A stretch of DNA of 64,000 bases from Streptomyces sp. CNQ-509 (GTDB taxonomy: Bacteria > Actinomycetota > Actinomycetes > Streptomycetales > Streptomycetaceae): assembly GCF_001011035.1 (NCBI RefSeq), contig NZ_CP011492.1:5563001-5627000 (forward strand). Reading direction: 5' to 3'. The position numbers were made by a program, and so were the translations under genes. The notes under the pieces were generated by a model. It was not told the DNA's origin. It worked only from the letters and a program-made list of their open reading frames with translations, and ran no database searches. This document shows positions 22,774-51,413 of the stretch, in pieces. Position 1 is the first letter of the stretch; every line of letters starts with the position of its first letter.

Positions 22774-22784
22774 CAGGATCGCCG

Positions 22785-24693: not shown

Positions 24694-26281
24694 GTCGGGA
24701 GTTTCGGCGCTGGTTGGGGTGGTGACCTGGTGAGCGTGAGTCCGGTGCACAAGCGTGGTTTGTATCTGGGTGTGCTTGCGCAGCGTGCGGCGGTGAGGCA
24801 CGGGTCGATGCTGCTGACGCTGGATCATGATCTGGATGTGCTGCCTGATGCGGGGCGGCGTATCACGGTCAGTGAGCTGGCTTATCACGTGTCCGATCTC
24901 GCCGCGCGTCTGGCGGTGGCGGGGGTGCGGGCGGGCGAGCATGTGGTGGTCTACAAGCGGCCGAACTTCGATTCGTGGATCCTGGGCACGGCGGTGGCGC
25001 GGCTCGGGGCGGTTCCGGTGATGCTCTCCCCGGCTCTGGATGCTCCGACGGTGGCGGCGTTGATGCGGCGTCTGGGCCGCCCGCACCTGCTCACCGACGA
25101 GGCGAAGCAGGCTCTCCTCGCCGGTGAGGATCTTGACGGGCTGGCGGCTTCGGTGATCACGGTGGCGTCGCTGGGTGAGCTGGAGGGTTCGCCCGGGGTG
25201 CCGGTGGTCTTCACGGGCCTGGACGAGCCGGCGATGATCACGCATACGTCGGGGACGACGGGGCTGCCGAAGCTGGTGGTCCACACCGCGCGCACGATGC
25301 GCACCCGGCTGCGGCCGCAGTTGTTCATGCTCGGGGTGATGCCGCGGCGGGAGACCGTCGCGATCAGTATCCCCTTCGTTCATTCCCGGCTCTTCGCGGC
25401 GATGGCGCTGGTGCTCTTCAAGGGCATGCCCACCCTCCTGGTGAACAACCACGACCCCGAAGCGGTCGCCACGTTCTTCCTCAAGAACCGCCCCGGGCTG
25501 ATCGAGGCCCTGCCCAACAGCTTCCTCGCCTGGGAAGGGCTGGTGAACGACCCCAGGAGGCCGTTCGCGTCGGTGAAGTACTTCTCCTCCACCTTCGATG
25601 CCATCCACCCGCGCACCGTGCGCCGGCTGCTGGACGCCTCCGGCCGCCGCGCCCCGCAGTTCTTCCAGATCTACGGCCAGTCCGAGGTCGGCCCGGCGGT
25701 CGGCAGGCCCTACTACCGGCGCCACGCACGCGACATGGACGGCCGCTGCGTCGGCTTCGCCCTGCCCGGCAGCGCGAAAGTCCGGGTCACCTCACCCAAC
25801 GGCCGCCAGGTCACCCCCGACAACCCCGGGTTCATCGAGGTCCGCTGGGACGGCATCGCCAAGACCTACCACGGCGAACAGGACCGCTACGACGAGAACG
25901 TCCACCAGGGCTGGTGGCGCACCGGAGACATCGGCTACCGCACCAAAGCCGGCTGCCTCCACATGCTCGACCGCGAGATCGACACCATCCCCGGCATCGG
26001 CTCCAGCCTGGAGATCGAAGACACCGTCCTGGACCGCCTCGACGAACTCGTCGAACTCGCCATCGTCCAGGGCCCCGGCAACAAACCCGTCCCCATCACC
26101 TGCACCCGCAACGACGAACCCGTCGACCCCCACCGCTGGCAACAAGCCACCCACGACTACCCCCAACTCACCGCCCCCGTCCACATCCCCCTCGCCCAAC
26201 TCCCACGCACCGCCACCCTCAAAACCCGCCGCGTCGAACTCACCCGCATCCTCCACGACAAACTCCAAGAACAACCCTGAA
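24694..26281 (+). repeat. 1588-bp inverted repeat, copy 1 (partner 49826-51413)
   Basis: The whole ligase gene plus 36 bp upstream and one base downstream recurs in inverted orientation at 49826-51413. Translations agree in every frame I compared on both strands, so the copies appear identical at the base level. Homology ends sharply at GTCGGG on one side and TGAA after the stop on the other; upstream of that the promoters are similar but diverged. Confidence 0.9.
24730..26280 (+). CDS. AMP-dependent acyl/aryl-CoA ligase family protein, copy 1
   Basis: This 516-residue class I adenylate-forming enzyme has the P-loop THTSGTTGLPK at about 171-181, the A5 motif YGQSE, the A7 motif GWWRTGDIGY and a C-terminal LKTRRVEL segment in which the lysine matches the A10 catalytic lysine. 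It should activate a carboxylic acid as acyl-AMP and pass it to CoA or a carrier. The GTG at 24730 was chosen because homology to copy 2 stays in frame there while the longer N-termini differ. Base usage drifts strongly: the first third is G/T-rich at wobble positions, the last third almost pure C/A. A SARP box lies upstream and a small ferredoxin-fold-like gene 51 bp downstream. The substrate is unknown. Confidence 0.85.
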   Translation: MSVSPVHKRGLYLGVLAQRAAVRHGSMLLTLDHDLDVLPDAGRRITVSELAYHVSDLAARLAVAGVRAGEHVVVYKRPNFDSWILGTAVARLGAVPVMLSPALDAPTVAALMRRLGRPHLLTDEAKQALLAGEDLDGLAASVITVASLGELEGSPGVPVVFTGLDEPAMITHTSGTTGLPKLVVHTARTMRTRLRPQLFMLGVMPRRETVAISIPFVHSRLFAAMALVLFKGMPTLLVNNHDPEAVATFFLKNRPGLIEALPNSFLAWEGLVNDPRRPFASVKYFSSTFDAIHPRTVRRLLDASGRRAPQFFQIYGQSEVGPAVGRPYYRRHARDMDGRCVGFALPGSAKVRVTSPNGRQVTPDNPGFIEVRWDGIAKTYHGEQDRYDENVHQGWWRTGDIGYRTKAGCLHMLDREIDTIPGIGSSLEIEDTVLDRLDELVELAIVQGPGNKPVPITCTRNDEPVDPHRWQQATHDYPQLTAPVHIPLAQLPRTATLKTRRVELTRILHDKLQEQP

Positions 26282-26331
26282 ACCCCGCCGCCCGCTACCG
26301 GCGGCGTGCGTGTTTACCAAGGAGATTCCCC

Positions 26332-26637
26332 ATGAGCGTCCGCATGTTCCGTGCCAAGATCAAGGAAGACAAGGTCGAGACCGCGGAGAAGGCTGCGAAG
26401 GAACTCTTCGCGGCGATCGAGGAAGCGAAGCCCGAGGGCGTCCGCTATTCCTGGTGCAAACTCGCGGACGGGCGGACCCTCGTTCTCGTGGTGGATCTGG
26501 AGGATGACGAGAAGAACCCTCTTCTCACCATGCCGGCATTCCAGGAGACGATGAACGGCCTGAAGAACGAGTGGATCTCGGAGCCGCTGTCGGTCGAGCC
26601 GATGACGTCACTCGGCTCGTACCGCCTCTTCTACTGA
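26332..26637 (+). CDS. Small protein, possible dimeric alpha/beta-barrel (ABM-like) fold
   Basis: This 101-residue protein follows ligase 1 by 51 bp and has a clear AAGGAG ribosome site. The order strand (VRMFRAKIKE), helix (VETAEKAAKELFAAIEEA), strand (RYSWCKLADGRTLVLVVDL), helix (MPAFQETMNGL) and strand resembles ferredoxin-like alpha/beta barrel proteins such as antibiotic biosynthesis monooxygenases. No catalytic residues can be assigned. It may act as a cofactor-free oxygenase or cyclase in the cluster, but this is inference from fold appearance and position only. No second copy accompanies ligase 2. Confidence 0.65.
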   Translation: MSVRMFRAKIKEDKVETAEKAAKELFAAIEEAKPEGVRYSWCKLADGRTLVLVVDLEDDEKNPLLTMPAFQETMNGLKNEWISEPLSVEPMTSLGSYRLFY

Positions 26638-26991
26638 TTCCACCCGGACGACCGTACCGCCCGCCGCGGCACCGCCGCGCGTGCGCCGGCGGCCGGGGGT
26701 TCCCCCTGGGCGGCGGCCGAGGGCGGTAGTCCACGGGCTCACCTTCCCGTCACCGCGTTCCCGGGTGCGGAATGAGCCATCGGCCACGAGCCTTCCGGCC
26801 ACCGCCCCGCGGGGCGGGCGGCCCCGGCCCGGCGCCGGTTCGAACGCCATTTTCCCATCAAACGCGTGTAGCCGATGCTCATTGCGCCGCCGGCTGTCTC
26901 GACGTGCGCCGGACGGCTTTGGCGGGGAGTCTTCTCTCAACGCGTCTTGTCTGGGTGCAACAGAAACAGCGAAACGGAGGAACAGGCGAAG
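26638..26991. other. Intergenic promoter region of the ScyD-like gene pair
   Basis: A 354-bp gap without a convincing gene. It probably contains the promoter of the secreted beta-propeller pair; a GGAGG ribosome site lies at 26976-26980. No SARP-type repeat array is visible here. Confidence 0.4.
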
Positions 26992-28146
26992 ATGCGTAGT
27001 CTGAAGAGGTTCCGCATGCCGCTCGCCGTCGCGGCGGCGACGGCGCTCGCGGGTGTGGCAGCCGGTCCGTCGGGTCAGGTGGTCGCGGCGGAGAAGGGTT
27101 CGGGCACGCTGTCCGGCGACGCCCCGGTCGAGGTCATCGCGAAGGGGCTGCACTCGCCCCGCGACCTGACCTGGACGCCCGAGGGCCGGCTTCTCGTCTC
27201 CGAGGCGGGCGGCATCGAGCAGCTCTGCGACAACGCCGACATCATGACGGCGAAGTGCTTCAGCACCACGGGCGCCATCACCGACGTCACCGACGGCAAG
27301 CCGAAGCGGATCGTCGAGGGCCTGGCCTCGAACGTGAACAACGCCGAGGTCGTCGGCCCGAACGCGATGGTCTACTCCGAGGGCAAGCTGCACGTCCTTC
27401 AGGCGGGCCACGGCATCGGGCTGCCGAAGTGGCTGCCCCGCGACCTGCGCACCACCCTGAAGAACCAGTACGGCAGGGTGCTCCAGGTCACGGAGAAGAA
27501 GGTCAAGGCGGTCGCCAACCCCGGCGCGGCCGGCTACAAGTGGATGCAGGAGAACCCGGACCTCGTCTCCGAGGACCCGACGTCCAACCCCGTCTCGCTC
27601 GCCGCGAAGCCGGGCGGCGGCTTCTACTACGTGGACGCGGCCGCGAACATCCTCGGTGAGATCGACCGCCGGGGCAAGGTCAAGGTCCTGAAGTGGTTCC
27701 CGAAGGCCCCGAACGGCGCCGACGCCGTACCCACCTGCGTCGACGTCGGCCCCGACGGCGCGGTGTACGCCGGGCAGCTCACCGGCTTCGGCAACACCGG
27801 CAACGCCGCGGCCAACATCTACCGGTACGACCCGAAGACCGGCGAGCTGAAGGTCTGGGAGAGCGGCTTCGCCACCATCTCCGGCTGCGGCTTCGGCGCC
27901 AACGGCGACTTCTACGTCACCCAGTTCGACCGGACCGGCTTCCCGCCGCCCGGTGACCCGCAGGGCGTCGTCGTCCAGATCGCCAAGGACGGCACCCGCA
28001 CCGAGCTGGGCGCGGGCAAGCTCTTCGCCCCGCAGGGCTTCCTCGCGGGCCCCGACGGCTCCATCTACGTCACCAACAACACCGTGTGGTACCCGGTCGG
28101 CACCACCAACCGCTGGGACCAGGGCGAGGTCGTCAAGATCGGCTGA
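26992..28146 (+). CDS. Secreted ScyD/ScyE-like beta-propeller protein 1
   Basis: This 384-residue protein begins with a Sec-type signal (MRSLKRFRMPLAVAAATALAG, then AGPSG...VVAAEK with a probable cleavage near residue 33). The mature part consists of repeating blades with NHL/SGL-type motifs such as GLHSPRDLTWTPEGRLLVSE, GGGFYYVDAAANILGEIDRRG and GPDGAVYAGQLTG. This matches the family annotated as ScyD/ScyE after the cyanobacterial scytonemin cluster. It likely binds or helps oxidise an aromatic intermediate outside the membrane, but no active site is known. A tandem paralogue follows after a hairpin. The ATG at 26992 gives a proper signal peptide; an upstream in-frame ATG does not. Confidence 0.8.
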   Translation: MRSLKRFRMPLAVAAATALAGVAAGPSGQVVAAEKGSGTLSGDAPVEVIAKGLHSPRDLTWTPEGRLLVSEAGGIEQLCDNADIMTAKCFSTTGAITDVTDGKPKRIVEGLASNVNNAEVVGPNAMVYSEGKLHVLQAGHGIGLPKWLPRDLRTTLKNQYGRVLQVTEKKVKAVANPGAAGYKWMQENPDLVSEDPTSNPVSLAAKPGGGFYYVDAAANILGEIDRRGKVKVLKWFPKAPNGADAVPTCVDVGPDGAVYAGQLTGFGNTGNAAANIYRYDPKTGELKVWESGFATISGCGFGANGDFYVTQFDRTGFPPPGDPQGVVVQIAKDGTRTELGAGKLFAPQGFLAGPDGSIYVTNNTVWYPVGTTNRWDQGEVVKIG

Positions 28147-28175
28147 CCCCGGCCCCCGTCCGTGACGGAAAGGCT

Positions 28176-28203
28176 GTCGTCGACCGGGCGACCGGTCGAC
28201 GAC
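28176..28203 (+). terminator. Hairpin between the two propeller genes
   Basis: A 12-bp perfect stem (arm GTCGTCGACCGG) with a 4-nt loop lies 30 bp after the stop of the first propeller gene. It may reduce read-through or stabilise the first message. Confidence 0.6.
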
Positions 28204-28286
28204 TCCCTTGCCGCGGCGGCCGGCCCCGGCCGCGCACGTGGTCACCCAGCAGAACCTCACCCCACCCAAGAGGAGATGAGAGCTCG

Positions 28287-29489
28287 ATGCGACGTCTCGC
28301 ACGATGTCGGATGCTGCTCGCCGCGGCAGCGGCGACAACGCTCGCCGGTGTGGCGGCCGGATCGTCCGGACCCGTGGCCGCCGCCGACCACGGCCGGGGC
28401 TCGGGCACGCTCGGCAAGGACGCCGAGGTCGAGGTGATCGCGGAGGGTCTGCACTCGCCGCGCTCCCTGACCTGGGGCCCGGGGGGCCGGCTGCTGGTCT
28501 CCGAGACCGGCACGCCGCCGCTGACGGCGCCGTCCGAGTGCAACATGGTCTCGGAAGAGATCGTCTTCGAGATGAAGTGCTTCGGCCACACCGGTTCCGT
28601 CGCCGACATCACGAACGGCACGCCGAAGCGGATCGTGAAGAACCTGCCCTCGGCGCTGAACCTCCAGGACATGATCGGCCCGAACGGGCTGGCCTACAGC
28701 CAGGGCCGCCTGTACACGCTGCAGGCGGGCTCGCCGCAGGCCCTCCCGACCGACGCGTGGCTCTCCGACGGCCTGCGGAACAAGCTCAAGCCGTACGTCG
28801 GCACCCTGCTCGACGTCACCAACCCGAAGAAGCCGCGGGTGGCCGCCCGGCCGGGTGCGGCCGACTACGAGTACATCAAGGAGAACCCGGACCCGACGCC
28901 CGACTTCGATGTCACGAACCCGTACTCGCTCACGCCCAGGAAGGGCGGCGGCTTCTACTACGTGGACGCCGCGGCGAACGTGCTCGGCGAGATCGACCGG
29001 TGGGGCAACGTCGAGATCCTCACCGGCTTCCCGCCCAGCCAGGCGGGCTCCGACGCCGTGCCCACCTGCGTCGCCCAGGGCCCGGACCGCGCGGTGTACG
29101 TCGGCGAGCTGACCGGCCACGGCAACACCGGCGAGGAGGGCGCCAAGGCCGCCAAGGTCTACCGCTACGAGCCGTGGAGCGGTGACCTGGAGGTCTGGCA
29201 GCGGGGCTTCAGCGCCATCTCGGGCTGCGGCTTCGGCAAGAACGGCGACTTCTACGTCACGCAGTTCACCTCGACCGGCTTCCTGCCGTCGCCCGACGAC
29301 GACGGCGGCAGCGTCATCCAGATCGGCCGCGACGGCACCCGTACGGAGCTGGGCAAGGGCAAGCTGTTCTTCCCGCACGGCTTCCTCGCGGGCCGGGACG
29401 GCTCGATCTACGTGGCCAACAAGAGCCTGTGGTGGCCCCCGGGCACCACAGGCGACTGGGACAAGGGAGAGGTCATCAAGATCGGCTGA
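28287..29489 (+). CDS. Secreted ScyD/ScyE-like beta-propeller protein 2
   Basis: This 400-residue paralogue of the preceding gene has the same layout: signal peptide (MRRLARCRMLLAAAAATTLAG), an SGTLGKDAEVEVI start of the mature part, and conserved blades (GLHSPRSLTWGPGGRLLVSE, GGGFYYVDAAANVLGEIDRWG, SGCGFGKNGDFYVTQF). It differs from copy 1 by insertions, for example around the EEIVFEMKCFG region, and overall divergence is large, so the duplication is old. Both keep two cysteine-containing spots that could form disulfides outside the cell. Role as in copy 1; a heterodimer is possible. An AAGAGGAG ribosome site precedes the ATG. Confidence 0.8.
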   Translation: MRRLARCRMLLAAAAATTLAGVAAGSSGPVAAADHGRGSGTLGKDAEVEVIAEGLHSPRSLTWGPGGRLLVSETGTPPLTAPSECNMVSEEIVFEMKCFGHTGSVADITNGTPKRIVKNLPSALNLQDMIGPNGLAYSQGRLYTLQAGSPQALPTDAWLSDGLRNKLKPYVGTLLDVTNPKKPRVAARPGAADYEYIKENPDPTPDFDVTNPYSLTPRKGGGFYYVDAAANVLGEIDRWGNVEILTGFPPSQAGSDAVPTCVAQGPDRAVYVGELTGHGNTGEEGAKAAKVYRYEPWSGDLEVWQRGFSAISGCGFGKNGDFYVTQFTSTGFLPSPDDDGGSVIQIGRDGTRTELGKGKLFFPHGFLAGRDGSIYVANKSLWWPPGTTGDWDKGEVIKIG

Positions 29490-29534
29490 TCGACGACCGG
29501 GCGTCCGGGTGTCCGGACGTCCCGGCGTCCGCCC

Positions 29535-29573
29535 AGGGCCGGGCCGTGGCTGCCAAGCCGTCGGCCCGGCCCT
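29535..29573 (+). terminator. Hairpin terminator after propeller 2
   Basis: A 12-bp perfect stem (arm AGGGCCGGGCCG) with a 15-nt loop follows the second propeller gene by 45 bp. Confidence 0.65.
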
Positions 29574-29645
29574 CGGCCGTGCCCGCCCGGGTCGTGCGCG
29601 GTGGGCACCGGTTCTGTACGCACGTGTCCGTAACGGAGGGGTCTC

Positions 29646-30791
29646 ATGCGAGTTGGCATCTGGTTCATCGGCGCCCGCGGGTCGGTCGCCACCACCGCCG
29701 TCGTCGGGGGGCTCGCGCTGCGCGCCGGCCTGACCGAGCCCGTGGGCTGCGTCACGGCGCACCCCGACCTGGCCGCCGGCGCGCTGCCGGGCTTCGGCGA
29801 CCTGGTCTTCGGCGGCCACGACGTGAACACCGGCACGGTGGCCAAGAAGGCCGAGCAGCTCGCCGCCGCCGGCGTCGTGCCCGCGCGGCTCGTACAGGCG
29901 CTGGAGGCGGACCTCGCCGAGGCGGAGGCCGAGCTGCGGCACGCGCCCGCCGGCGGCACCCAGGCGGAGACGGCCGCCGCCGTGGTCGCCGACATCGAGG
30001 CGTTCGCGGAGCGGCACGCGCTGGAGCGGGTCGTCGTCGTCAACGTCGCCTCCACCGAGCCCGCCGCCCAGCCGCACCCGGCGCACGCGGACCTGGCGGC
30101 GCTCGACGCCGCGCTCGCCGCCCCCGGCCGGGTGCTGCCGCCCAGCTCCCTCTACGCGTACGCGGCGTTCACCGCCGGCTGCGCGTACGTCGACTTCACC
30201 CCCTCCACGGGGGCGCGGCTGCCCGCGCTCGACGAACTGGCCGCCGCCCGCGGACTGCCCTACGCGGGCCACGACGGCAAGACCGGTGAGACGCTGCTGA
30301 AGTCGGTGCTCGCCCCGATGTTCGCGATGCGCAACCTCGCGGTCCGCTCGTGGTCGGGCCTGAACCTCCTCGGCGGCGGCGACGGCGCCAACCTCGCCGA
30401 GCCGGGCGCCAACGCGGCGAAGTCCGTCAGCAAGCAGCGCGTGCTGCGCGAGACCCTCGGCTACGCGCCGGAGGGCGACACCCACATCGACTACGTCGCC
30501 GACATCGGCGACTTCAAGACCGCCTGGGACCTCATCACCTTCGGCGGCTTCCTCGGCACCCCGATGCGGCTGCAGTTCACCTGGGAGGGCTGCGACTCGG
30601 CGCTCGCCGCGCCGATCGTCCTCGACCTGGCCCGGATCTCCCTGGCCGCGCACGCGGCGGGGCGCACGGGCCCGCTGACGCCGCTGGCCTTCTTCTTCAA
30701 GGACCCCCTCGGGGACGGCGACCACGCGCTGCACGCCCAGTGGGCGGAGCTGCGCGCGTTCGTCGCGGGACTCGACGGCGACGGCCGCTGA
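29646..30791 (+). CDS. Inositol-3-phosphate synthase family protein (divergent type)
   Basis: This 381-residue protein has a Rossmann start (VGIWFIGARGSVATT), the NVASTEP segment, and the conserved FTPS and GHDGKTGETLLKSVLAPMF signatures of myo-inositol-1-phosphate synthase, with SWSGLNLLGGGDG and the C-terminal lysine-rich SVSKQRVL loop. It should convert glucose-6-phosphate to inositol-3-phosphate with NAD. The N-terminus differs from the common actinobacterial Ino1, which typically begins with a VGVGNCA motif, so this is a second, divergent subfamily. Its place inside a meroterpenoid cluster is unexpected; it might supply an inositol or cyclitol unit or be a passenger. It ends at a terminator facing haloperoxidase 1. 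Confidence 0.8.
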   Translation: MRVGIWFIGARGSVATTAVVGGLALRAGLTEPVGCVTAHPDLAAGALPGFGDLVFGGHDVNTGTVAKKAEQLAAAGVVPARLVQALEADLAEAEAELRHAPAGGTQAETAAAVVADIEAFAERHALERVVVVNVASTEPAAQPHPAHADLAALDAALAAPGRVLPPSSLYAYAAFTAGCAYVDFTPSTGARLPALDELAAARGLPYAGHDGKTGETLLKSVLAPMFAMRNLAVRSWSGLNLLGGGDGANLAEPGANAAKSVSKQRVLRETLGYAPEGDTHIDYVADIGDFKTAWDLITFGGFLGTPMRLQFTWEGCDSALAAPIVLDLARISLAAHAAGRTGPLTPLAFFFKDPLGDGDHALHAQWAELRAFVAGLDGDGR

Positions 30792-30812
30792 GGAGGTCCC
30801 GTACGACGTGAA

Positions 30813-30852
30813 CGGCCGGGCAGGCCGCGGTGGTGCGCACCCTGCCCGGCCG
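30813..30852. terminator. Bidirectional terminator between inositol-phosphate synthase and haloperoxidase 1
   Basis: A 12-bp perfect stem (arm CGGCCGGGCAGG) with a 16-nt loop separates two convergent genes. Confidence 0.75.
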
Positions 30853-30881
30853 GTCCCGCGTGACCGCGACCGCGGCGGCGG

Positions 30882-32438
30882 TCAGTCCTCCACGTCGCCC
30901 TTGATGTACTTCTGGGCGAACTCGTACGCGAGGTCGCCGAACTGGGTGCCGAACTCCATCGACCGCTCGACCGTGGTCGTGAAGTGCACCCCGGCCCAGA
31001 GCCGGCTGTAGCCGCAGTCCTTCACGAACTCGGTCCAGGTGCCGTAGTGCAGCTCCATGTCCCTGGCGGGGGTGATCCCGGGCTCCGTCAGCGTCCAGCC
31101 GGCGGGGATGGGCCAGGTCCAGTCCAGGCGGTCGTCGCCGAGGAAGCGCCGGGCGGCCTGCGCCTCGGCGGCGCAGAGCGTCGTGGATCCCGACGGGTAG
31201 TCGGGGTGGTCGCCCACGGGGAGGAAGCTGGCCCACTCGTCGGCGGGCATGTCGTGCACGGTCCCGATGCCGGGCCCGCCCCAGGCGGACACCTTCTTCT
31301 TGCCGTACACGTGCCGGATGGCGGAGAACGGCCGCGGCGCCTGGTACTTGACCTTATAGTGCCAGGCCGCGATGAGATCCTCGACCTGTGCCAGCGAACT
31401 CGTGTAGATCAGGTGGACCCAGTCGTCCAGCTCCAGGTCGTGGGCTATCCCCGCGGCCTTCGTCGACTGGCCGATGCCCAGGAACTTGTTGTCGAAGAAC
31501 TCGGCCTTCACCTTCTGCTCGTCGTCGAGCGTGGCGGACGCCTCCAGGATCTCGTCCACCGAGCGCTTGTAGCGGCGCGGGTCGGTGTGGTCGAGGTGGT
31601 CCGGCGGGGCCAGCGGGAACTGGCTCGGGTGCCGGTAGGTGTCCGGCTTCACCAGCGCCATCTGCGGGGTGACCATGTGCTGGACGACGAAGATGCCCTT
31701 GTCGCCCGGGCCGCCGCCCACCCGGCGGCGGTGCGGGTGCCTGGCCGGCTGCCACTTCGACGGGTTGACCAGCTTGTAGGCGGTGTTCACCGGCTCGAAG
31801 CCGGTGTAGTCCTCGTAGGGCTGCCCGTGGTACTTCCGGCCCTCGTCGCCGAAGAGGTTCATGCCGTCACGCGCCTTGGCCTTGAGGACGCCCCTGGCGG
31901 CCAGGTTGCCGATGCCCACCGGGCTGGTGGGATCCGTCGACTGGTCGTCGGGGTCCAGGCCGAGCGTGGTCATGAGCTGCCGGAAGGCCGCCACCCGCTC
32001 CTTGAAGACGGACTGGAACACCACGTTCGCGGCGTGGAACGCGGCGACGTTCTTGTTCCGGTTGGTGTTCGACTCGCTGGCGGGACGGCGCGGTATGCGG
32101 CTGTGCCGGCCGACGGCGGTCGGGTGGTAGGGCGCCAGCGCGTCGAACCACGCGGTCATCGTGAGATGGGTGAGGTAGACGAGGACCGTCGCGTCCATCG
32201 GGCCGAGCGGCTCCTCGGACGGGTTGGCCGCCGTGCTGAGCAGGTCCCGGTGGAAGTTGCCGGTGTCGAAGTCGAATTCGGCGGCGGCGGCCGGCTTCGC
32301 CGCCGGTCCCGTGCCCTGGCCGGCGGCGGCCGCGGTGCCGGTCCCCAGGGTCGCCAGCGCGGCGGTCGAGGCGCCGCCGAGCAGCAGCGACCTGCGAGCT
32401 GGGGAGAAGCCAGCGGAGGAGGAGTTTCCGGACGTCAT
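30882..32438 (-). CDS. Vanadium-dependent haloperoxidase homologue 1 (NapH/Mcl type)
   Basis: This 518-residue protein matches bacterial vanadium chloroperoxidases of meroterpenoid clusters. It has the vanadate pocket pattern: K-x6-R in KVKYQAPR, the PSGST motif where fungal enzymes have SGH, and R-x5-H in RLWAGVH with His485 as the expected vanadate ligand. The N-terminus (SPARRSLLLGGASTAALATLG) looks like a Tat signal, so the enzyme may be exported with its cofactor. It should oxidise chloride or bromide with peroxide, driving oxidative dearomatisation, halogenation or cyclisation of a prenylated naphthol. It is last in a minus-strand group with the cis-prenyltransferase and haloperoxidase 2. 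Whether the product is chlorinated cannot be told from sequence. Confidence 0.9.
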   Translation of the reverse strand: MTSGNSSSAGFSPARRSLLLGGASTAALATLGTGTAAAAGQGTGPAAKPAAAAEFDFDTGNFHRDLLSTAANPSEEPLGPMDATVLVYLTHLTMTAWFDALAPYHPTAVGRHSRIPRRPASESNTNRNKNVAAFHAANVVFQSVFKERVAAFRQLMTTLGLDPDDQSTDPTSPVGIGNLAARGVLKAKARDGMNLFGDEGRKYHGQPYEDYTGFEPVNTAYKLVNPSKWQPARHPHRRRVGGGPGDKGIFVVQHMVTPQMALVKPDTYRHPSQFPLAPPDHLDHTDPRRYKRSVDEILEASATLDDEQKVKAEFFDNKFLGIGQSTKAAGIAHDLELDDWVHLIYTSSLAQVEDLIAAWHYKVKYQAPRPFSAIRHVYGKKKVSAWGGPGIGTVHDMPADEWASFLPVGDHPDYPSGSTTLCAAEAQAARRFLGDDRLDWTWPIPAGWTLTEPGITPARDMELHYGTWTEFVKDCGYSRLWAGVHFTTTVERSMEFGTQFGDLAYEFAQKYIKGDVED

Positions 32439-32477
32439 CGTATTTTTTCCTTGTCCCTAGCGAGGATGCGTTGCACG

Positions 32478-32517
32478 TCCCAGGCGGGGCCCGTGGGGGG
32501 CCGGGCCACGCCTGGGA
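32478..32517 (-). terminator. Intergenic hairpin between cis-prenyltransferase and haloperoxidase 1
   Basis: A 9-bp stem (arm TCCCAGGCG) with a GC-rich 22-nt loop lies in the 122-bp gap. It could attenuate read-through into haloperoxidase 1. Confidence 0.5.
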
Positions 32518-32560
32518 GACCGGAGTCGGCCGTTGTTCGCCCGAGTCGTGCGGTGGTGCG

Positions 32561-33220: not shown

Positions 33221-33312
33221 CCCCTTTGGTGTGCGTGGTCAGATGTGTCGGAGGGTTGTGCGCACGCGGGAGCGTGAATGGGCCGGAGCGGGTCCGGCGC
33301 AACCTGCTGCGA

Positions 33313-41460: not shown

Positions 41461-41550
41461 GACGAGGTCTCCTGCCTCCCGTGGGGAAAGGTTTTCCGGC
41501 ATGCCGGCGCCCTTGCCGCGCATGCCGGTGGTGTACGTGCCGCGGTGGGC

Positions 41551-42983: not shown

Positions 42984-43169
42984 TCATTCCGGCTGCATCT
43001 CTTCCAGCGTGGCCGTCACGTCGTCGGGGTGGTAATAGACCCGGCCGATCTGCTTGTAGCGGCGCCAGCGGTGCATGTGGGCGTAGCGGTAGACCGTGCC
43101 CTTGGGTATCCGCCAGATGCTGGCGATGTCGTTCGCCGTCAGACCGGTGCTCGCGAGTTGGTACTTCAT
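42984..43169 (-). CDS. Small helix-turn-helix DNA-binding protein
   Basis: This 61-residue protein is an excisionase/MerR-like single helix-turn-helix: LTANDIASIWRIPKGTVYRYAHMHRW followed by the wing RYKQIGRVYYHPDDV. Its ATG overlaps the stop of the gene at 43166 by four bases (ATGA), so both are co-translated. Such pairs occur in actinobacterial integrative elements and phages. It may act as a local regulator of the divergent or neighbouring cluster genes, but its target is not evident. It lies upstream of the rppA promoter on the same strand. Confidence 0.7.
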   Translation of the reverse strand: MKYQLASTGLTANDIASIWRIPKGTVYRYAHMHRWRRYKQIGRVYYHPDDVTATLEEMQPE

Positions 43170-43828
43170 CCGACCTCTCTTTGCGTGCGCATCCGGCGGG
43201 CGAGTCTGCTCCACCAGGTGACCGGCCAGGTGTGGGCGGCGGAAGCCGTGCAGACGATCTCCGAAGGCATCGCGTCGCCGTGGGTGCGGATCAGGGCGAC
43301 GAGGGTGCCCTCGCAGCCGGCGTCGGGACAGTCGCCGAGGTGGACGCGGCGGAGGCGGCCGGGGTCGGCGACCTTGCGCGCCCGCCGGGAGAGTTCCTGG
43401 ATCTCCTCCGCGATGTCGCCCGCGGCCGGGTGGCGGGCGAGCCACTCGACATGCAGGCACAGGAAGCGCGCGAGCGCCGGGACGTCCCTGGCGGGGGAGT
43501 TCAGCCGGCGTTCCTCGGCGACGAGTCCCGACCAGGAAGCCAATACCGTGCGGATGGCGGCGCGCACCTCGGCGGCGGCGGGATTCATCGTGCCGGTCGC
43601 GGAACTCTTCCTGGCGACCTTCCGGATGACCCGTACCATCTCGGGACCCGGACTTCCGGTGCAGTCGGAATAAAGTGCGGGAAGGTTGAGCAGGTCGCTC
43701 TCGAGCCGGCCCCGGCAGGATGTGCAGAGCCTACTTCCTCCGTCGGTCACTCCCCTGATTTTCGTGGAGCTATCGGTCAGCGTACTTCTGCAGGACGGGA
43801 CTCGACATATTCCGTGCCTTGTGAGCAT
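43166..43828 (-). CDS. Hypothetical zinc-ribbon-like protein
   Basis: This 220-residue protein starts with a probable zinc ribbon (C8-x4-C13 and C36-x2-C39 in LCTSC), continues with mostly helical sequence and has further cysteines in LGDCPDAGCEG. The rest is not recognised. The ATG at 43828 has a GGAGGGG ribosome site. It is coupled to the small helix-turn-helix gene and might be a nucleic-acid-binding partner of mobile-element origin; this is an inference from similar gene pairs in actinobacterial phages and integrative elements. It sits in the middle of the biosynthetic cluster without an obvious biosynthetic job. Confidence 0.6.
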   Translation of the reverse strand: MLTRHGICRVPSCRSTLTDSSTKIRGVTDGGSRLCTSCRGRLESDLLNLPALYSDCTGSPGPEMVRVIRKVARKSSATGTMNPAAAEVRAAIRTVLASWSGLVAEERRLNSPARDVPALARFLCLHVEWLARHPAAGDIAEEIQELSRRARKVADPGRLRRVHLGDCPDAGCEGTLVALIRTHGDAMPSEIVCTASAAHTWPVTWWSRLARRMRTQREVG

Positions 43829-44213: not shown

Positions 44214-47200
44214 TCACCCCGGCGTGCCTTCCGCGAGCCCGCGTTCCACGGCCGCGATGAGCTGCGGCCGGAGCTCCTCGGGACGGATGATCGCGTCCAC
44301 GGAACCCACCTCCCGCGCGCGCCGGATCGAGTGCACGCCGTCGAACTCGGCGGCGACCTCGCCCAGTTTCTCCGCGCGCACCGCCGCCCACACGCTCTCC
44401 AGCCGCCCGGCGAGCTGCGCCCGCTCCCGGCCCGAGGCCGCGGAGAGACGGGACTCCAGGCCCGTCACCCGCGCGTCCGCGGCCGTACGGGCGTCGACCT
44501 CGGCGGCGAAGACCACCGCGGCGGCCGGCGCCCCGCCGAGGACCGAGGCGTACGAACCGTCCACCGCCAGCACCGTCATGCCCGGGTTCAGCGCCTTGGA
44601 GAACACCACGAACGCGCCGCCGTGGTAGCGCGAGATCACGCAGAACACGATCGGGCCGCGGAAGTTGACGATCGCCCGGCCGATCTCGGCCCCGTACTCC
44701 AACTGCAGCTCGCGCATCGACTCCGGCGAGCCGTCGAAGCCGGACAGGTTCGCCAGCACCACCAGCGGCCGGTTCCCGCTCGCCGCGTTCACCGCCCGGG
44801 CGACCTTCTTCGACGACCGCGGGAACAGCGTGCCCGCGGTGTACGCGTCGGGCCCGTCGGTGGGCGGGAAGCCGCGCCGCGGCACCGACCGCGACTCGAT
44901 GCCCACCAGGCACACCGGCCGCCCGCCCAGGTGCACGTCCTGCACCACCGCGGTCTCCGCCTCCGCCATGTCGGCCCAGCGCTCCAGCACCGCGTGGTCC
45001 TGGTCGGTGACCGCGCGCATCACCGTGCGGATGTCGAACGGCTTCTTGCGGTCCGGGTTGGTCGCGGCGGAGAAGATCTCCCCGACCGTGGTGAAGTCGC
45101 TGCCCTCGGCGGCGTGCGGGAAGTCGCACACGTCCCGGTCGACCGGGTCGGAGGTCCGCGCCTTGCGCGGGCCGGCCTCGCCGGGCAGCACGTAGCTGTG
45201 GTCGTAGTACGACAGCAGCACGTCCCGCGCGGCCTTCAGGTCGGGCGCCCAGTACTGCGCCTGCCCGTTCGGGCCCATCACCCGGTCGTAGCCGCCGATG
45301 CCGAAGTTGTCCTCCGCCGAGACGCCGCCGGAGAAGTCGAGCGATCTCTTGCCGGTCAGCACCATCGCCGAGTCCGGGGTCATCACCAGCACGCCCCGGG
45401 TGTGCATCAGCATCGTGGCCTCGGCGTTCCAGTACGGCTGCGCGCCGACGTTGACGCCCGCGACGACGACGTTGATCTCGCCGCCGTCCTGGGTGAAGTG
45501 CACGATGCGGCGCAGCGCGCGGGCGATCCAGTCCATGTTCTCGGTGCCCGAGTCCATCGCGATCCGGGCACCCGCGGACAGCGCGTACCACTCGACGGGC
45601 ACCCGCAGCCTCTCCGCCAGGTCGAGCGCCGCGACCACCCGCGCGCACTCCGCCTCGGAGAGCGCGCCCAGCGCCTTCACCGGGTCGCCGAGGAGCACGA
45701 CGCGGGTGACACCCTCCGGGTAGCGCTCCGTCGGCGTGGTGGCCACGCCGGCCACGAGGCCGGCCTTGTTGAGGCCCTTCGGCCGCTGCACGGGGGCCAG
45801 TGCGCCGGAGTCGTCGAGGTCGTGCTCGGTGAAGGTGCCGCCGGCACCGGCGATCATGTCGAAGAGCTCGTACGGGTAGACCGTGCCCCGGCGCCGCACC
45901 CGCAGCACCTTCTGGCCGTAGTCGTCGAGCGGCTGGAGCAGGTCGGTGGGCGGGGCCGTGACGCTGAGGCGGACGCCCGCGGCCACGTCGTACGAGACCC
46001 GCACCGCGGCCGGCACGAGACCGCCCCGCCGGTCGCGCCGGCAGCCGAGGAGCAGCACCTCCTCCACGCCCAGGCCCCGGGTCGTCGGCAGGACGCGCCG
46101 GGCCACGTCGTTCAGCTCCGCGAGCGTCAGATCGCTGGGCGGGCGGACGTTGATGAAGATGCGGTTGGTGTCCTGGCGTCTGCTCCCCGGCCGCCTGACC
46201 TGCTCCCTGCGGATCGCGTCCAGGCAGGCGCCGAGCGCCGCCTCGACCTCGGGCAGCGCGAGGATGCGGCCCTCCTCGTCGCGCAGCGGGGTGAGGTCGC
46301 GGACCTGGGCCATGGCGACCAGCCGCTCGTCCGCGGGGTTGCTCGGCGCGACGCAGCGCAGCAGGTAGACGTCCTCGTTGACGGACGGCAGCCGGGTGAG
46401 GTCGAAGTTCCGCAGCCGGCGCAGCAGCAGCCGCTGGCCGATGAGCGGGTGCATGCCGCGCATCAGCTTGTCCTCCTCCGGTCCTTCGGGGGAGGGCAGG
46501 AACGTGAAGTGCTGGGGCGCCGCGCCGTTGTGCCCGGCGACCGTCGTGGTGATCCGGTGCAGGCTGGCGGGGAGCGATCCCGACAGCGCCGCGCGCAGCC
46601 CGGCGGCCATGTCGTCGGTCTCCGGGGGCCGGCCGGTCCAGGTGAGGTAGAACTCGGCGACGACGGCGGTCGAGTCGGGCTCCGCGGCGGCCACCTCCGC
46701 GACGGTCGCGGCGGCGCCGGCCAGGTCGCCGAAGTCGGCGACGGTCACCAGCAGCCGGTGCGAGACGCCGTCGAGTTCGTAGCGGCCGGTGACGAACGGC
46801 CGCCCCGCGACCGTCTCGCAGCGCACGCCGGTCAGCCGGTGGTCGCGGTAGGCGCGGCGGACGAGGACTTCCAGCAGCGGGTCCGCCTCGGTGTCCGGGC
46901 GGGCGATGCGCTCGCCCAGCAACTGGATGAGCGACTCGGGGCTGGCGACCATGTCGGCGATCCGCCGGTCGCGGTCGGGCGCGTCCGGGTGCGCGTCGAG
47001 GTGGTGCAGGTGGTCGCGTATCCGGTTGTAGACCGTGGCGCGGGTGTGGCGCAGCAGCGGCTGCGCGTACCAGCGGAACACCAGGCTCCGCGCGAGCCCG
47101 CCGACCAGCGGGAAGCGCAACTGCGTGGCCCGGATCAGGCGTTCCAGCGCCTGGCTCACGACCTGGCGCAGCCCGTCGGGCGGCGGCGCCTCGGTGAGCC

Positions 47201-49712
47201 ACTGCTGGAGCAGCGCGGTGATCACCGCGACGTCGGCGGTGGCCGCCTGCCGGGCGAGGAAGATCCGGAAGACCGCTTCCTCCAGCGCGGGCGTACGGTC
47301 GAGGCTTTCGACGCCGTAGTGGCCCAGCACGCGGGTGAGCCGGCCCTGGAACGTCTCGGAGAGCCCGGCCCGTTCCGCGTCGAGACTCTGCAGGTAGGTG
47401 TGGAAGAACTCGCGCGGGCTGCGCACCCAGGTCTCGGCCGCGGTCTCCTCGTGCTCCGGCTTGTTGCGGCTCAGCTCGGAGAGATCGGCGAAGACCTCCA
47501 GCAGCCCGGCCTCCGCGGCCAGCGGCCGCTCCGGCAGCACGGCGCGCACTGCGAGGTAGCCGGCGAGGGCGTCGTCGGCCCCGGCCGGGTCGACGTCGAA
47601 GCCGAGAAGTCTGCTGCGGAGGTCCGCCAGGCCGCGCGCGGCCCGCTGCTCCGCGCTCTGCCCGGCCGCCTCCGCGGGCAGGTCCAGGTCGGCGCCCGCG
47701 GCCACGGGCGCGGCGTCGACGTCGTCGAGCGGCTCCAGACGGAGCAGCGGCGCACCGGTCTCGACCTGGCTGCCGACGGCGACCAGCGACTCCTTGAGCA
47801 CCGCGCGGAACGGCGCGCGCAGCACCGTCTCCATCTTCATGCTCTCCAGTACGAGCACCGGGGCGCCCTCGTCGACCTCGTCCCCGGCGCCGAGCGGCGT
47901 CGCGACCACCAGCGCGGGGGCGGGGGAGCGGACCACGCCGCCCTCGTCGCGGCTGATCCGGTGCGTCACACCGTCGACCTCGACCAGGTGCACCGGCCCG
48001 TGCGCGCCGGTGACCAGCCGGAAGCGGTGGCCGTTGAGCCGGATCTGCCCGGTGTGCTGGTCGAACCGCTCCAGCACGGCGTCGACGGCCCGCACAGTGC
48101 CGTCGTCCGTATCCGTGCCGGAGCGGAAACCGACGCGGTAGCGGCCGGGGCCGGTCTCGGCCACCGTGAGCCGGTACCCGGCGCCGCGCAGCGTGAGGTC
48201 GACCGGGCGGCCGCCCTCGTGGTGCACCTGCGGGCGGCCGCCGCGCGCGGTACCCAGCAGCCGCTGCAACTCGGCCTGCTTCCCGTCCTCGTACGCCTCG
48301 ATCGCCGCGACCGCCAGCGCGACGCCGGAGTGCCGCGGCGACGCCAGCCCGCCCCCGGCCCGTACCCGGTCGATCCAGCCGGTGTCGGCGCCGGCGTCGA
48401 TCACCGCGGGCTCGTCGAGCAGGTCGAGGATGAAGCTCTTGTTGGTGGTGCCGCCCTCGATGAGCACCGTCGTCTCGCGCATCGCGTGCCGCAGCCGGGA
48501 GAGCGCCTCCGCGCGGTCCCGCCCGTACGCGATGACCTTGGCGATCATCGAGTCGAAGTCGGCGGGGATGGTGTCGCCCTGGCTGACGCCGGTGTCGACC
48601 CTGATGCCGGGACCCGCGGGCAGGTCGAGCAGCGCGATACGGCCCGGGGCGGGCGCGAAGTCGCGGTCGGGGTCCTCGGCGTTGAGCCGGGCCTCGACGG
48701 CGTGCCCCAGCTCGGCCGGCCGCTCGCCGGTGAGCCGGCCGCCCGCGGCCACGTGGAGCTGCGCCTTGACGAGGTCCATGCCGGTGGTGGCCTCGGTGAC
48801 CGGATGCTCCACCTGGAGCCGGGTGTTGACCTCCAGGAAGGCGAACATGCCGTCCTTCGGCTGGTACAGGAACTCGACCGTGGCCGCGCCCCGGTAGCCC
48901 ACCGCGAGCGCCAGCCGCTCCGCCGACTCCTTCAGCCGCGCCACCTGCTCTGCTGCCAGCACAGGCGAGGCCGACTCCTCGACGATCTTCTGGTTCCTGC
49001 GCTGCACGGAGCAGTCCCGTACGCCCAGCGCCCACACCCCGCCCTGGCCGTCGGCGATCACCTGGACCTCGACGTGCCGCGCGTGGACGAGCAGCCGCTC
49101 CAGGAACAACGCGCCGTTGCCGAAGGAGCGTTCCGCCTCCTCGCTGGTGCGCTGGAACGCGTCGGCCAGCTCGTCCGGCGCGTGCACGGCGCGTACGCCC
49201 CGGCCGCCGCCGCCCGCGGTCGCCTTGAGCATCAGCGGATAGCCGATCCGCTCGGCCTGGCGCAGCGCCGTGTCCAGATCCGCGACGGGGCCGCGGCTCC
49301 ACGGCGCGACCGGGACGCCGACCTCCTCGGCGAGGAGCTTGGCGCTGATCTTGTCGCCCAGCTTCCGCATCGCCTCGGGGCCCGGACCGATGAAGGTCAC
49401 GCCGAGCTTCCCGCACAGCTCGGCGAAGGCGGGGTCCTCGGCGACGAAGCCCCAGCCCACCCACGCGGCATCGGCGCCGGACTCGACGAGGGCGCGCTCC
49501 AGCACGGCGAGGTCGAGGTACGGGCGGTCCGCCGCTCTGCCCAGGTCGTAGCCGAGGTCTGCCGCGCGTACGAACGCGGCCGTGGCGTCGGCGTCGGTGT
49601 AGAACGCCACCGTCTCGATCCGCGGCGCGCCCGTGGCGTTGAGCTCGCCGACGGCCTTGATGAGCCGCATCGCGGCCTCGCCACGGTTGATGATCGCCAC
49701 ACGGCTGAACAC
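44214..49712 (-). CDS. Fused multidomain acyl-CoA carboxylase (BC-BCCP-CT)
   Basis: This 1832-residue protein joins all carboxylase functions. Residues about 1-450 form biotin carboxylase (RVAIINRGEAA start, ATAGGGGRGVR ATP loop, EVNTRLQVEHPVTE). The biotinyl domain carries Lys626 in ESMKMET. A central helical region follows, then carboxyltransferase from about 1100 to 1832 (AGAGGTFTEHD, GANVGAQ-like GVNVGAQPYW, GGVSAEDNFGIGG, GGAFVVFSKALNPG). It resembles the eukaryote-like single-chain acetyl-CoA carboxylase. In this cluster it should make malonyl-CoA for the pentaketide THN; propionyl-CoA cannot be excluded. It is 114 bp downstream of ligase 2 on the same strand and may be driven by the SARP box there. 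Confidence 0.88.
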   Translation of the reverse strand: MFSRVAIINRGEAAMRLIKAVGELNATGAPRIETVAFYTDADATAAFVRAADLGYDLGRAADRPYLDLAVLERALVESGADAAWVGWGFVAEDPAFAELCGKLGVTFIGPGPEAMRKLGDKISAKLLAEEVGVPVAPWSRGPVADLDTALRQAERIGYPLMLKATAGGGGRGVRAVHAPDELADAFQRTSEEAERSFGNGALFLERLLVHARHVEVQVIADGQGGVWALGVRDCSVQRRNQKIVEESASPVLAAEQVARLKESAERLALAVGYRGAATVEFLYQPKDGMFAFLEVNTRLQVEHPVTEATTGMDLVKAQLHVAAGGRLTGERPAELGHAVEARLNAEDPDRDFAPAPGRIALLDLPAGPGIRVDTGVSQGDTIPADFDSMIAKVIAYGRDRAEALSRLRHAMRETTVLIEGGTTNKSFILDLLDEPAVIDAGADTGWIDRVRAGGGLASPRHSGVALAVAAIEAYEDGKQAELQRLLGTARGGRPQVHHEGGRPVDLTLRGAGYRLTVAETGPGRYRVGFRSGTDTDDGTVRAVDAVLERFDQHTGQIRLNGHRFRLVTGAHGPVHLVEVDGVTHRISRDEGGVVRSPAPALVVATPLGAGDEVDEGAPVLVLESMKMETVLRAPFRAVLKESLVAVGSQVETGAPLLRLEPLDDVDAAPVAAGADLDLPAEAAGQSAEQRAARGLADLRSRLLGFDVDPAGADDALAGYLAVRAVLPERPLAAEAGLLEVFADLSELSRNKPEHEETAAETWVRSPREFFHTYLQSLDAERAGLSETFQGRLTRVLGHYGVESLDRTPALEEAVFRIFLARQAATADVAVITALLQQWLTEAPPPDGLRQVVSQALERLIRATQLRFPLVGGLARSLVFRWYAQPLLRHTRATVYNRIRDHLHHLDAHPDAPDRDRRIADMVASPESLIQLLGERIARPDTEADPLLEVLVRRAYRDHRLTGVRCETVAGRPFVTGRYELDGVSHRLLVTVADFGDLAGAAATVAEVAAAEPDSTAVVAEFYLTWTGRPPETDDMAAGLRAALSGSLPASLHRITTTVAGHNGAAPQHFTFLPSPEGPEEDKLMRGMHPLIGQRLLLRRLRNFDLTRLPSVNEDVYLLRCVAPSNPADERLVAMAQVRDLTPLRDEEGRILALPEVEAALGACLDAIRREQVRRPGSRRQDTNRIFINVRPPSDLTLAELNDVARRVLPTTRGLGVEEVLLLGCRRDRRGGLVPAAVRVSYDVAAGVRLSVTAPPTDLLQPLDDYGQKVLRVRRRGTVYPYELFDMIAGAGGTFTEHDLDDSGALAPVQRPKGLNKAGLVAGVATTPTERYPEGVTRVVLLGDPVKALGALSEAECARVVAALDLAERLRVPVEWYALSAGARIAMDSGTENMDWIARALRRIVHFTQDGGEINVVVAGVNVGAQPYWNAEATMLMHTRGVLVMTPDSAMVLTGKRSLDFSGGVSAEDNFGIGGYDRVMGPNGQAQYWAPDLKAARDVLLSYYDHSYVLPGEAGPRKARTSDPVDRDVCDFPHAAEGSDFTTVGEIFSAATNPDRKKPFDIRTVMRAVTDQDHAVLERWADMAEAETAVVQDVHLGGRPVCLVGIESRSVPRRGFPPTDGPDAYTAGTLFPRSSKKVARAVNAASGNRPLVVLANLSGFDGSPESMRELQLEYGAEIGRAIVNFRGPIVFCVISRYHGGAFVVFSKALNPGMTVLAVDGSYASVLGGAPAAAVVFAAEVDARTAADARVTGLESRLSAASGRERAQLAGRLESVWAAVRAEKLGEVAAEFDGVHSIRRAREVGSVDAIIRPEELRPQLIAAVERGLAEGTPG

Positions 49713-49825
49713 CGGTCAGACCTCCCAAGTTCACCTACAGTCCGCGGGCGCGCCGGCGGCTGTTCCGCCCGGCGCGCCCGCTGCGTGTCGGGCCGGGGCC
49801 GGATGGGGCCCCGAGCCACGGGTTG

Positions 49826-51413
49826 TTCAGGGTTGTTCTTGGAGTTTGTCGTGGAGGATGCGGGTGAGTTCGACGCGGCGGGTTTTGAGGGTGGCGGTGC
49901 GTGGGAGTTGGGCGAGGGGGATGTGGACGGGGGCGGTGAGTTGGGGGTAGTCGTGGGTGGCTTGTTGCCAGCGGTGGGGGTCGACGGGTTCGTCGTTGCG
50001 GGTGCAGGTGATGGGGACGGGTTTGTTGCCGGGGCCCTGGACGATGGCGAGTTCGACGAGTTCGTCGAGGCGGTCCAGGACGGTGTCTTCGATCTCCAGG
50101 CTGGAGCCGATGCCGGGGATGGTGTCGATCTCGCGGTCGAGCATGTGGAGGCAGCCGGCTTTGGTGCGGTAGCCGATGTCTCCGGTGCGCCACCAGCCCT
50201 GGTGGACGTTCTCGTCGTAGCGGTCCTGTTCGCCGTGGTAGGTCTTGGCGATGCCGTCCCAGCGGACCTCGATGAACCCGGGGTTGTCGGGGGTGACCTG
50301 GCGGCCGTTGGGTGAGGTGACCCGGACTTTCGCGCTGCCGGGCAGGGCGAAGCCGACGCAGCGGCCGTCCATGTCGCGTGCGTGGCGCCGGTAGTAGGGC
50401 CTGCCGACCGCCGGGCCGACCTCGGACTGGCCGTAGATCTGGAAGAACTGCGGGGCGCGGCGGCCGGAGGCGTCCAGCAGCCGGCGCACGGTGCGCGGGT
50501 GGATGGCATCGAAGGTGGAGGAGAAGTACTTCACCGACGCGAACGGCCTCCTGGGGTCGTTCACCAGCCCTTCCCAGGCGAGGAAGCTGTTGGGCAGGGC
50601 CTCGATCAGCCCGGGGCGGTTCTTGAGGAAGAACGTGGCGACCGCTTCGGGGTCGTGGTTGTTCACCAGGAGGGTGGGCATGCCCTTGAAGAGCACCAGC
50701 GCCATCGCCGCGAAGAGCCGGGAATGAACGAAGGGGATACTGATCGCGACGGTCTCCCGCCGCGGCATCACCCCGAGCATGAACAACTGCGGCCGCAGCC
50801 GGGTGCGCATCGTGCGCGCGGTGTGGACCACCAGCTTCGGCAGCCCCGTCGTCCCCGACGTATGCGTGATCATCGCCGGCTCGTCCAGGCCCGTGAAGAC
50901 CACCGGCACCCCGGGCGAACCCTCCAGCTCACCCAGCGACGCCACCGTGATCACCGAAGCCGCCAGCCCGTCAAGATCCTCACCGGCGAGGAGAGCCTGC
51001 TTCGCCTCGTCGGTGAGCAGGTGCGGGCGGCCCAGACGCCGCATCAACGCCGCCACCGTCGGAGCATCCAGAGCCGGGGAGAGCATCACCGGAACCGCCC
51101 CGAGCCGCGCCACCGCCGTGCCCAGGATCCACGAATCGAAGTTCGGCCGCTTGTAGACCACCACATGCTCGCCCGCCCGCACCCCCGCCACCGCCAGACG
51201 CGCGGCGAGATCGGACACGTGATAAGCCAGCTCACTGACCGTGATACGCCGCCCCGCATCAGGCAGCACATCCAGATCATGATCCAGCGTCAGCAGCATC
51301 GACCCGTGCCTCACCGCCGCACGCTGCGCAAGCACACCCAGATACAAACCACGCTTGTGCACCGGACTCACGCTCACCAGGTCACCACCCCAACCAGCGC
51401 CGAAACTCCCGAC
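49826..51413 (-). repeat. 1588-bp inverted repeat, copy 2 (partner 24694-26281)
   Basis: This is the inverted partner of 24694-26281, covering the second ligase gene with the same boundaries. The two arms enclose 23.5 kb that contains the THN synthase, all haloperoxidases, prenyltransferase 1 and the carboxylase. Confidence 0.9.
49827..51377 (-). CDS. AMP-dependent acyl/aryl-CoA ligase family protein, copy 2
   Basis: The 516-residue product is identical to that of the gene at 24730: P-loop THTSGTTGLPK, YGQSE, GWWRTGDIGY and LKTRRVEL. Identity over the whole gene including synonymous positions means a very recent duplication, gene conversion, or an assembly effect. The upstream region carries a similar but diverged SARP box. 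Unlike copy 1 it is followed by the carboxylase gene rather than the small barrel protein. The GTG at 51377 corresponds to the start chosen for copy 1; longer N-termini diverge between the copies. Function as in copy 1, substrate unknown. Confidence 0.85.
   Translation of the reverse strand: MSVSPVHKRGLYLGVLAQRAAVRHGSMLLTLDHDLDVLPDAGRRITVSELAYHVSDLAARLAVAGVRAGEHVVVYKRPNFDSWILGTAVARLGAVPVMLSPALDAPTVAALMRRLGRPHLLTDEAKQALLAGEDLDGLAASVITVASLGELEGSPGVPVVFTGLDEPAMITHTSGTTGLPKLVVHTARTMRTRLRPQLFMLGVMPRRETVAISIPFVHSRLFAAMALVLFKGMPTLLVNNHDPEAVATFFLKNRPGLIEALPNSFLAWEGLVNDPRRPFASVKYFSSTFDAIHPRTVRRLLDASGRRAPQFFQIYGQSEVGPAVGRPYYRRHARDMDGRCVGFALPGSAKVRVTSPNGRQVTPDNPGFIEVRWDGIAKTYHGEQDRYDENVHQGWWRTGDIGYRTKAGCLHMLDREIDTIPGIGSSLEIEDTVLDRLDELVELAIVQGPGNKPVPITCTRNDEPVDPHRWQQATHDYPQLTAPVHIPLAQLPRTATLKTRRVELTRILHDKLQEQP

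Follow-up and report, generated by a model that had tools for sequence, protein, structure and literature searches.

Identical inverted copies of a ligase-like gene in a haloperoxidase gene cluster of Streptomyces sp. CNQ-509 and their probable concerted evolution

Streptomyces sp. CNQ-509, a producer of naphterpin and debromomarinone (PMC4684245), contains a biosynthetic gene cluster in which one gene occurs as two identical copies facing each other. In the 64,000-nt stretch analyzed here (the window; positions 5,563,001-5,627,000 of the 8,039,333-bp chromosome, CP011492) each copy is a 516-codon gene encoding an AMP-binding (ANL) domain (PF00501, E 9.8e-39): ligA, with a GTG start at 24730 on the forward strand, and ligB, with a GTG start at 51377 on the reverse strand. 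Base-by-base comparison of the arms containing them, 24694-26281 (forward) and 49826-51413 (reverse), gave reverse-complementary matches at 1588 of 1588 nt (100%), with 23,544 nt between the arms. The identity begins 36 nt 5' of the GTG codon and ends 1 nt past the stop codon, which ends at 26280 in ligA and lies at 49827 in ligB. Hence, the identical 1588-bp inverted repeat around a 23.5-kb core, the agreement even at wobble positions and the sharp end of the identity outside the genes, as claimed in the initial annotation, were all confirmed. We propose that an old duplication combined with arm-to-arm gene conversion, i.e. concerted evolution, very probably explains the identical arms. An operator-plus-ligase unit would have been duplicated within the cluster before CNQ-509 and two other strains, G047 and CNH-099, diverged, and both inverted copies would since have been kept identical by RecA-type ectopic gene conversion.

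Divergence of the ligase copies within and between strains

The observations behind this proposal are the shared positions of the copies, near-zero divergence within genomes against high divergence between them, and a divergent tract present in both arms of G047. The genome of G047 (8,029,398 bp, one contig) contains a collinear counterpart of window positions 12388-59288 (94.8% identity) in which both ligase copies occupy the corresponding sites, the flanks of copies A and B being orthologous to those in CNQ-509. Its arms differ at a single position out of 1592 (an R/K change at codon 22), whereas comparing the ligases between the two strains gives 148 differences for copy A and 149 for copy B in 1551 nt, or 9.5%. 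Two hallmarks of concerted evolution were therefore recovered: paralogues within a genome are closer than orthologues (0/1588 and 1/1592 within versus 148/1551 between), and both copies share synteny, with a collinear block in G047 and fitting contig ends in CNH-099. Consistent with this, a tree of the ligase copies pairs them by genome (A with B in CNQ-509 and A with B in G047) and not by position. Had the arms evolved independently since the strain split, 24-37 synonymous differences between them would be expected for a background of 0.06-0.093, and the probability of observing none is at most 3.2e-11. An internal control is provided by the inverted MFS1/MFS2 pair (23118-24413 and 35209-36495), which stays at 78-81% identity, indicating that homogenization is not general in the block.

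The synonymous divergence (dS) between CNQ-509 and G047 is 0.353 for the ligase. The values for 22 further block genes are 0.057-0.165, and an unlinked paralogue gives 0.079; the 22-gene range was obtained from a codon-aware alignment that included VHPOb, MFS2 and VHPOc and left out MMPL, ScyE2 and g12747, the last of which has a dS of 0.035. Within the gene a divergence breakpoint was located at nt 1068 (log-likelihood ratio 18.7), with 12.4% divergence before it and 3.3% after it, and codons 1-360 hold 132 differences in 1080 nt compared to 16 in 471 nt for the rest (p=5e-9). This divergent 1.07-kb stretch is found in both G047 arms. With CNH-099 as the outgroup, lineage-specific ligase changes over 314 nt numbered 25 in G047 against 9 in CNQ-509, while six other genes gave 179 against 197 (p=0.004). 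In the gene-by-gene divergence comparison with CNH-099 the ABBA2 row, probably a paralogue, was ignored, and for five genes the stretches compared contained no match in CNH-099. Given the excess of changes on the G047 side, the stretch was most likely imported into the G047 lineage. Its presence in both arms is most simply explained by a single import that was then passed from arm to arm by conversion; two separate imports with matching ends would not be a simple explanation. The conversion would be non-reciprocal, and the tract would derive from an unsampled outside donor.

Faster mutation or codon bias was rejected as the sole cause of the high ligase dS, because the gene's own 3' third shows a divergence close to background and because other genes of lower GC content at third codon positions do not reach 0.353 (SARP 0.057, 101-aa gene 0.077, ABBA1 0.144). 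A third, unlinked ligase homologue of CNQ-509, at 2.077 Mb and 77% identical, was likewise rejected as the donor of the tract, since its codons 1-315 are far from both arms (proportion of synonymous differences, pS, 0.36-0.71 versus 0.16-0.49 between the arms of the two strains). Over codons ~315-495 the CNQ-509 arm shows a pS of 0.15-0.34 to this homologue versus 0.49-0.63 to the frame-broken orthologue in the genome G105, which suggests a possible older ectopic exchange with the third copy in that region. Among ten proteins scanned around the third copy, only two sigma factors resemble genes of tetrahydroxynaphthalene (THN) clusters, both being about 51% identical to the sigma factor at window positions 56247-57383.

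In the draft genome of CNH-099, a contig of 20,701 bp (C48) carries most of the inner block, namely the genes for the carboxylase, methyltransferase, one ABBA prenyltransferase, three haloperoxidases, MFS2, the cis-prenyltransferase-like protein, the ScyE-like pair and the 101-aa protein. Both ends of this contig are the 3' end of the ligase, inverted and identical over 95 nt. Of the outer contigs, the one with MFS1 ends inside ligA and the one with ispG ends in promoter B, and the last 95 nt of the latter, comprising promoter sequence, recur exactly in the MFS1 contig. The four ends involved all fall within the ligase or its promoter and have the same neighbors as in CNQ-509, the pattern that a draft assembly shows when an identical inverted repeat could not be resolved; these contigs carry no information on block orientation, and the pair in this strain is deduced from the contig ends. 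Since G047 has the two copies where CNQ-509 has them, and the CNH-099 contig ends are consistent with this arrangement, the duplication arose before the three strains separated and is not recent. The initial annotation had invoked recent gene conversion or duplication; the gene conversion is strongly supported, while the recent duplication is not. In searches of 295, 391 and 296 genomes (overlapping draws, with strict E-value limits) two ligase copies more than 90% identical to the query were recovered only in CNQ-509 and G047.

The order FAD monooxygenase-MFS1-ligase also occurs at a further locus (L012) and at the degraded G105 locus, and no ligase was found in the stretches examined around the carboxylase genes of S. 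aculeolatus and G105. Based on these arrangements, copy A, which follows the FAD monooxygenase and MFS1, is most likely the ancestral one, with copy B placed in front of the carboxylase. The G105 locus (L075; G105:C1, 8.5-19 kb) is a decayed relative of the cluster near a chromosome end, in which the FAD monooxygenase has lost its middle, the ligase is frame-broken and the ScyE-like and haloperoxidase genes are partial.

Alternative explanations and the orientation of the block

A very recent duplication of the ligase in CNQ-509, leaving too little time for differences, would also yield arms identical at 1588 of 1588 positions. This is extremely improbable, as the same two sites are occupied in G047, the CNH-099 contig ends fit the same arrangement and the ligases of CNQ-509 and G047 are 9.5% apart; a recent origin would require the gene to have been duplicated independently two or three times, each time into the same pair of sites. 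The perfect identity could alternatively be an artefact in which a single collapsed repeat contig was placed twice. The CNQ-509 assembly was built from 454 and MiSeq reads into 128 contigs and 7 scaffolds, followed by "manual in silico assembly" (PMC4684245), and the draft contigs of CNH-099 break at the arms, so that the absence of arm differences in CNQ-509 could partly reflect a collapsed-repeat consensus. We nevertheless regard an artefact as very unlikely, because each of the four unique flanks has its orthologous counterpart in G047, a genome in which the arms themselves differ at one site. Moreover, a collapse requires near-identical copies to begin with: it could mask a few differences but could not create the pair, and the arms would be nearly identical even if the consensus were collapsed. 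Strong selection at the nucleotide level holding both copies identical, with which the low ratio of nonsynonymous to synonymous divergence (dN/dS 0.09) might seem to agree, has a practically negligible probability, as synonymous sites differ freely between strains (dS 0.353) and the DNA letters are thus not constrained.

The initial annotation had further claimed that recombination through the arms could invert the block and exchange the genes downstream of each ligase. With inward-pointing arms a crossover would be mechanistically expected to do both, and the geometry makes this plausible, but CNQ-509 and G047, both with resolved arms, have the block in the same orientation (2/2), although the orientation in CNQ-509 is less certain than it appears, having been joined from 454 and MiSeq reads. 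One could go further and view the arms as a reversible switch that flips the 23.5-kb core and swaps the genes after each ligase, as the convergent identical 1.6-kb arms might allow and as the Salmonella tuf genes might suggest, where an inversion of the intervening region accompanied nearly half of the conversions selected at one site (PMC5485169). Such a switch is highly improbable in light of the common orientation of the resolved genomes, the same junction of ligase and 101-aa gene in the single-copy G105 locus and the same kind of operator in both promoters; furthermore, no dedicated recombinase was found among the 20 proteins scanned at 20998-56173 or in two short frames at 42984-43828. 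That the arms are phase-variable promoters was likewise considered and rejected, given the shared operator and the lack of a recombinase among the scanned proteins. As the same kind of operator stands on both sides, a swap of downstream genes need not change the controlling regulator, and an inversion may be nearly neutral. More tentatively, the arms might form a recombination relay, with foreign alleles passing from copy to copy and exchanges flipping the core, so that cultures would mix both orientations, with the ligase-carboxylase and ligase-101-aa operons swapped between the two promoters; we consider this possible but doubtful.

Certain points weigh against old duplication with arm-to-arm conversion. 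Conversion is deduced from sequence comparison, and the donor of the divergent tract was not found. The outgroup test is short (314 nt), and the CNQ-509 assembly could mask a few arm differences. The genes for RppA, isopentenyl diphosphate (IPP) isomerase and the INO1-like protein are not on the inner contig of CNH-099, and the pair is present in three strains only, two of them resolved and one deduced from contig ends; for recurrent concerted evolution at least five species were required in PMC6053082.

Operators, gene content and the putative enzyme

Upstream of each ligase we found the pattern CCAAGT-5-CCAAGT-16/17-CCAAG by exact search: operator A at 24601-24638 (forward), with three CCAAG half-sites 11 and 22 bp apart, and operator B at 51441-51479 (reverse), with half-sites 11 and 23 bp apart. 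The 8.04-Mb genome contains three occurrences of this pattern, one each upstream of ligA, ligB and the third ligase, while a reversed control gave none. SARP sites are direct repeats with such spacing, and we take the element to be SARP-like. A SARP-type gene (PF03704 and PF00486) is located at 17948-19096, and the operators are predicted to bind this regulator of the cluster. Contrary to the initial annotation of the promoters as diverged, they are homologous, both keeping the three half-sites, though promoter B does lack 28 nt of promoter A beside the operator. This loss is common to CNQ-509 and G047 and lies exactly at the edge of the identity; CNH-099 is without it, and there the identity continues through the promoter. 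In the tuf genes, heterologous sequence is known to stop conversion tracts (PMC5485169). The operator element also stands upstream of the carboxylase gene in both S. aculeolatus and G105, and in G105 additionally upstream of a 101-aa homologue; at these loci no ligase was found in the stretches examined. As the operator thus precedes ligase-free carboxylase genes, the ligase seems to have been inserted between an existing operator and the carboxylase, possibly via recombination at the operators. Two operator-driven copies would raise the enzyme dose in two operons, one of ligA with the 101-aa protein and the other of ligB with the carboxylase.

On the left, copy A is flanked by the FAD monooxygenase and MFS1 genes (20998-24590, forward; domain and homology scan). 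Directly 3' of ligA lies the gene for the 101-aa conserved protein (26332-26637, forward), a gene that takes the same place behind the ligase in G105 and on the CNH-099 contig; its earlier label as a small barrel gene finds no backing in Pfam (0 families at E 0.001), nor was there an NCBIfam match. The inner block (26875-42618; Pfam and NCBIfam) encodes a ScyD/E-like protein and its paralogue, their paralogy being evident from direct repeats, an INO1-like protein, three vanadium haloperoxidases, a cis-prenyltransferase-like protein, MFS2, an ABBA prenyltransferase, an O-methyltransferase, an IPP isomerase and RppA. The ScyD/ScyE-like pair and the inositol-1-phosphate-synthase-like protein (26875-29489 and 29646-30791) stand between the ligase and the haloperoxidases. 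After ligB follows a single-chain 1832-aa acyl-CoA carboxylase (44214-49712, reverse) with biotin carboxylase, ACC_central and carboxyltransferase domains, a eukaryote-like layout; G047, G105, CNH-099 and S. aculeolatus have relatives that share 88-98% identity with it. The outer flank of copy B (51519-54793, reverse) comprises ispG (PF04551) and a fusion of ispH (LytB, PF02401) with a polyprenyl synthase (PF00348), the latter in one 676-aa frame at 52763-54793 that is also a single frame in CNH-099 (L110).

In S. aculeolatus rppA, a cupin gene, a DegT aminotransferase gene and a ligase gene (59% identity) follow one another, which we infer to be the order napB1-B4. NapB4 is a CreM homologue and putative diazo-forming enzyme (reviewed in PMC11705231), and a gene for a diazo-forming enzyme is conserved in naphterpin clusters (PMC12670698). 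Examination of 11 further ligase loci out of 32 fetched, with flanks taken only within the stretch around the ligase, recovered rppA together with cupin and/or aminotransferase genes at eight and not at the other three (L013, L014 and L033). In CNQ-509 a second rppA, a cupin monooxygenase and a DegT aminotransferase gene lie at 5,633,967-5,636,791, about 7-10 kb to the right of the window, with the cupin and aminotransferase genes at 8-10 kb; hence, the cluster is probably larger than the window. From these gene contexts the enzyme is probably a NapB4/CreM-like ATP-dependent diazotase, putatively acting on 8-aminoflaviolin. Two results speak against this assignment: the best database scores are to ordinary acyl-CoA ligases, and the protein scores 84.9 bits where the NCBIfam diazotase model NF058622 (AvaA6) has its cut-off at 975, this model being an equivalog for 3-aminoavenalumate diazotase, with another substrate. 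We would still favor the NapB4-type reading over the original "ligase" label. In other genomes, equal-scoring ligase homologues were seen on opposite strands at positions 198068 and 11925213 of G068:C1, mirrored about 198 kb from both chromosome ends, the arrangement that long terminal inverted repeats would give, and similarly at 105460 and 11220823 of G108:C1 (the length of G108 being rounded).

Relation to known systems and implications

The ligase pair is reminiscent of tufA/tufB of Salmonella, a near-identical inverse pair whose identity likewise ends at the gene borders and in which conversion is blocked by large heterologous sequence; the tuf copies, however, are 762 kb apart and encode EF-Tu, whereas the ligases are separated by 23.5 kb within a secondary-metabolite cluster (PMC5485169). 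It also resembles the 26 prokaryotic genes reported to undergo concerted evolution, in which paralogues within a genome are closer than orthologues and synteny is shared, but the examples named in that study include tuf, genes of ammonia oxidation and photosystems, and archaeal methyltransferase genes, and only three strains are concerned here (PMC6053082); the string "secondary metabol" is absent from its text. Homogenization within a biosynthetic gene cluster has been described for domains of modular polyketide synthases (PKS) and nonribosomal peptide synthetases (NRPS) (PMC4256081), unlike the present case of a whole free-standing inverted gene with its own operator. With the NapB4/CreM diazotases the enzyme shares its ANL-type domain and its linkage to THN synthase, cupin monooxygenase and aminotransferase genes (PMC11705231, PMC12670698); CNQ-509 differs in having two identical copies, away from the cupin and aminotransferase genes. 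A limited search of the literature on concerted evolution and on CNQ-509 and the MAR4 strains recovered such evolution for PKS/NRPS domains and for core genes but no report of the inverted ligase pair, and the word "ligase" is absent from the available text of PMC4650096, PMC5867634 and PMC4684245.

A cluster termed HIBGC8 in CNB-632 and CNH-099 was described with three haloperoxidases on a very short contig, and further sequencing was called for to settle whether it is the same as HIBGC9 of CNQ-509 (PMC4650096). As the 20.7-kb contig of CNH-099 holds three haloperoxidases, one ABBA prenyltransferase and two ligase-arm ends, HIBGC8 most likely represents the core of the same kind of cluster as HIBGC9. 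The inverted arms offer a concrete explanation for the fragmented assembly of a marinone-type cluster in a MAR4 strain. If the proposed history is right, the pair would show that concerted evolution in biosynthetic clusters reaches beyond PKS/NRPS domains to an entire free-standing gene. With its divergent tract as a tracer, it would serve as a clean natural experiment in Streptomyces on how inverted copies of a gene convert each other. It would also indicate that a duplicated biosynthetic gene can evolve as one unit.

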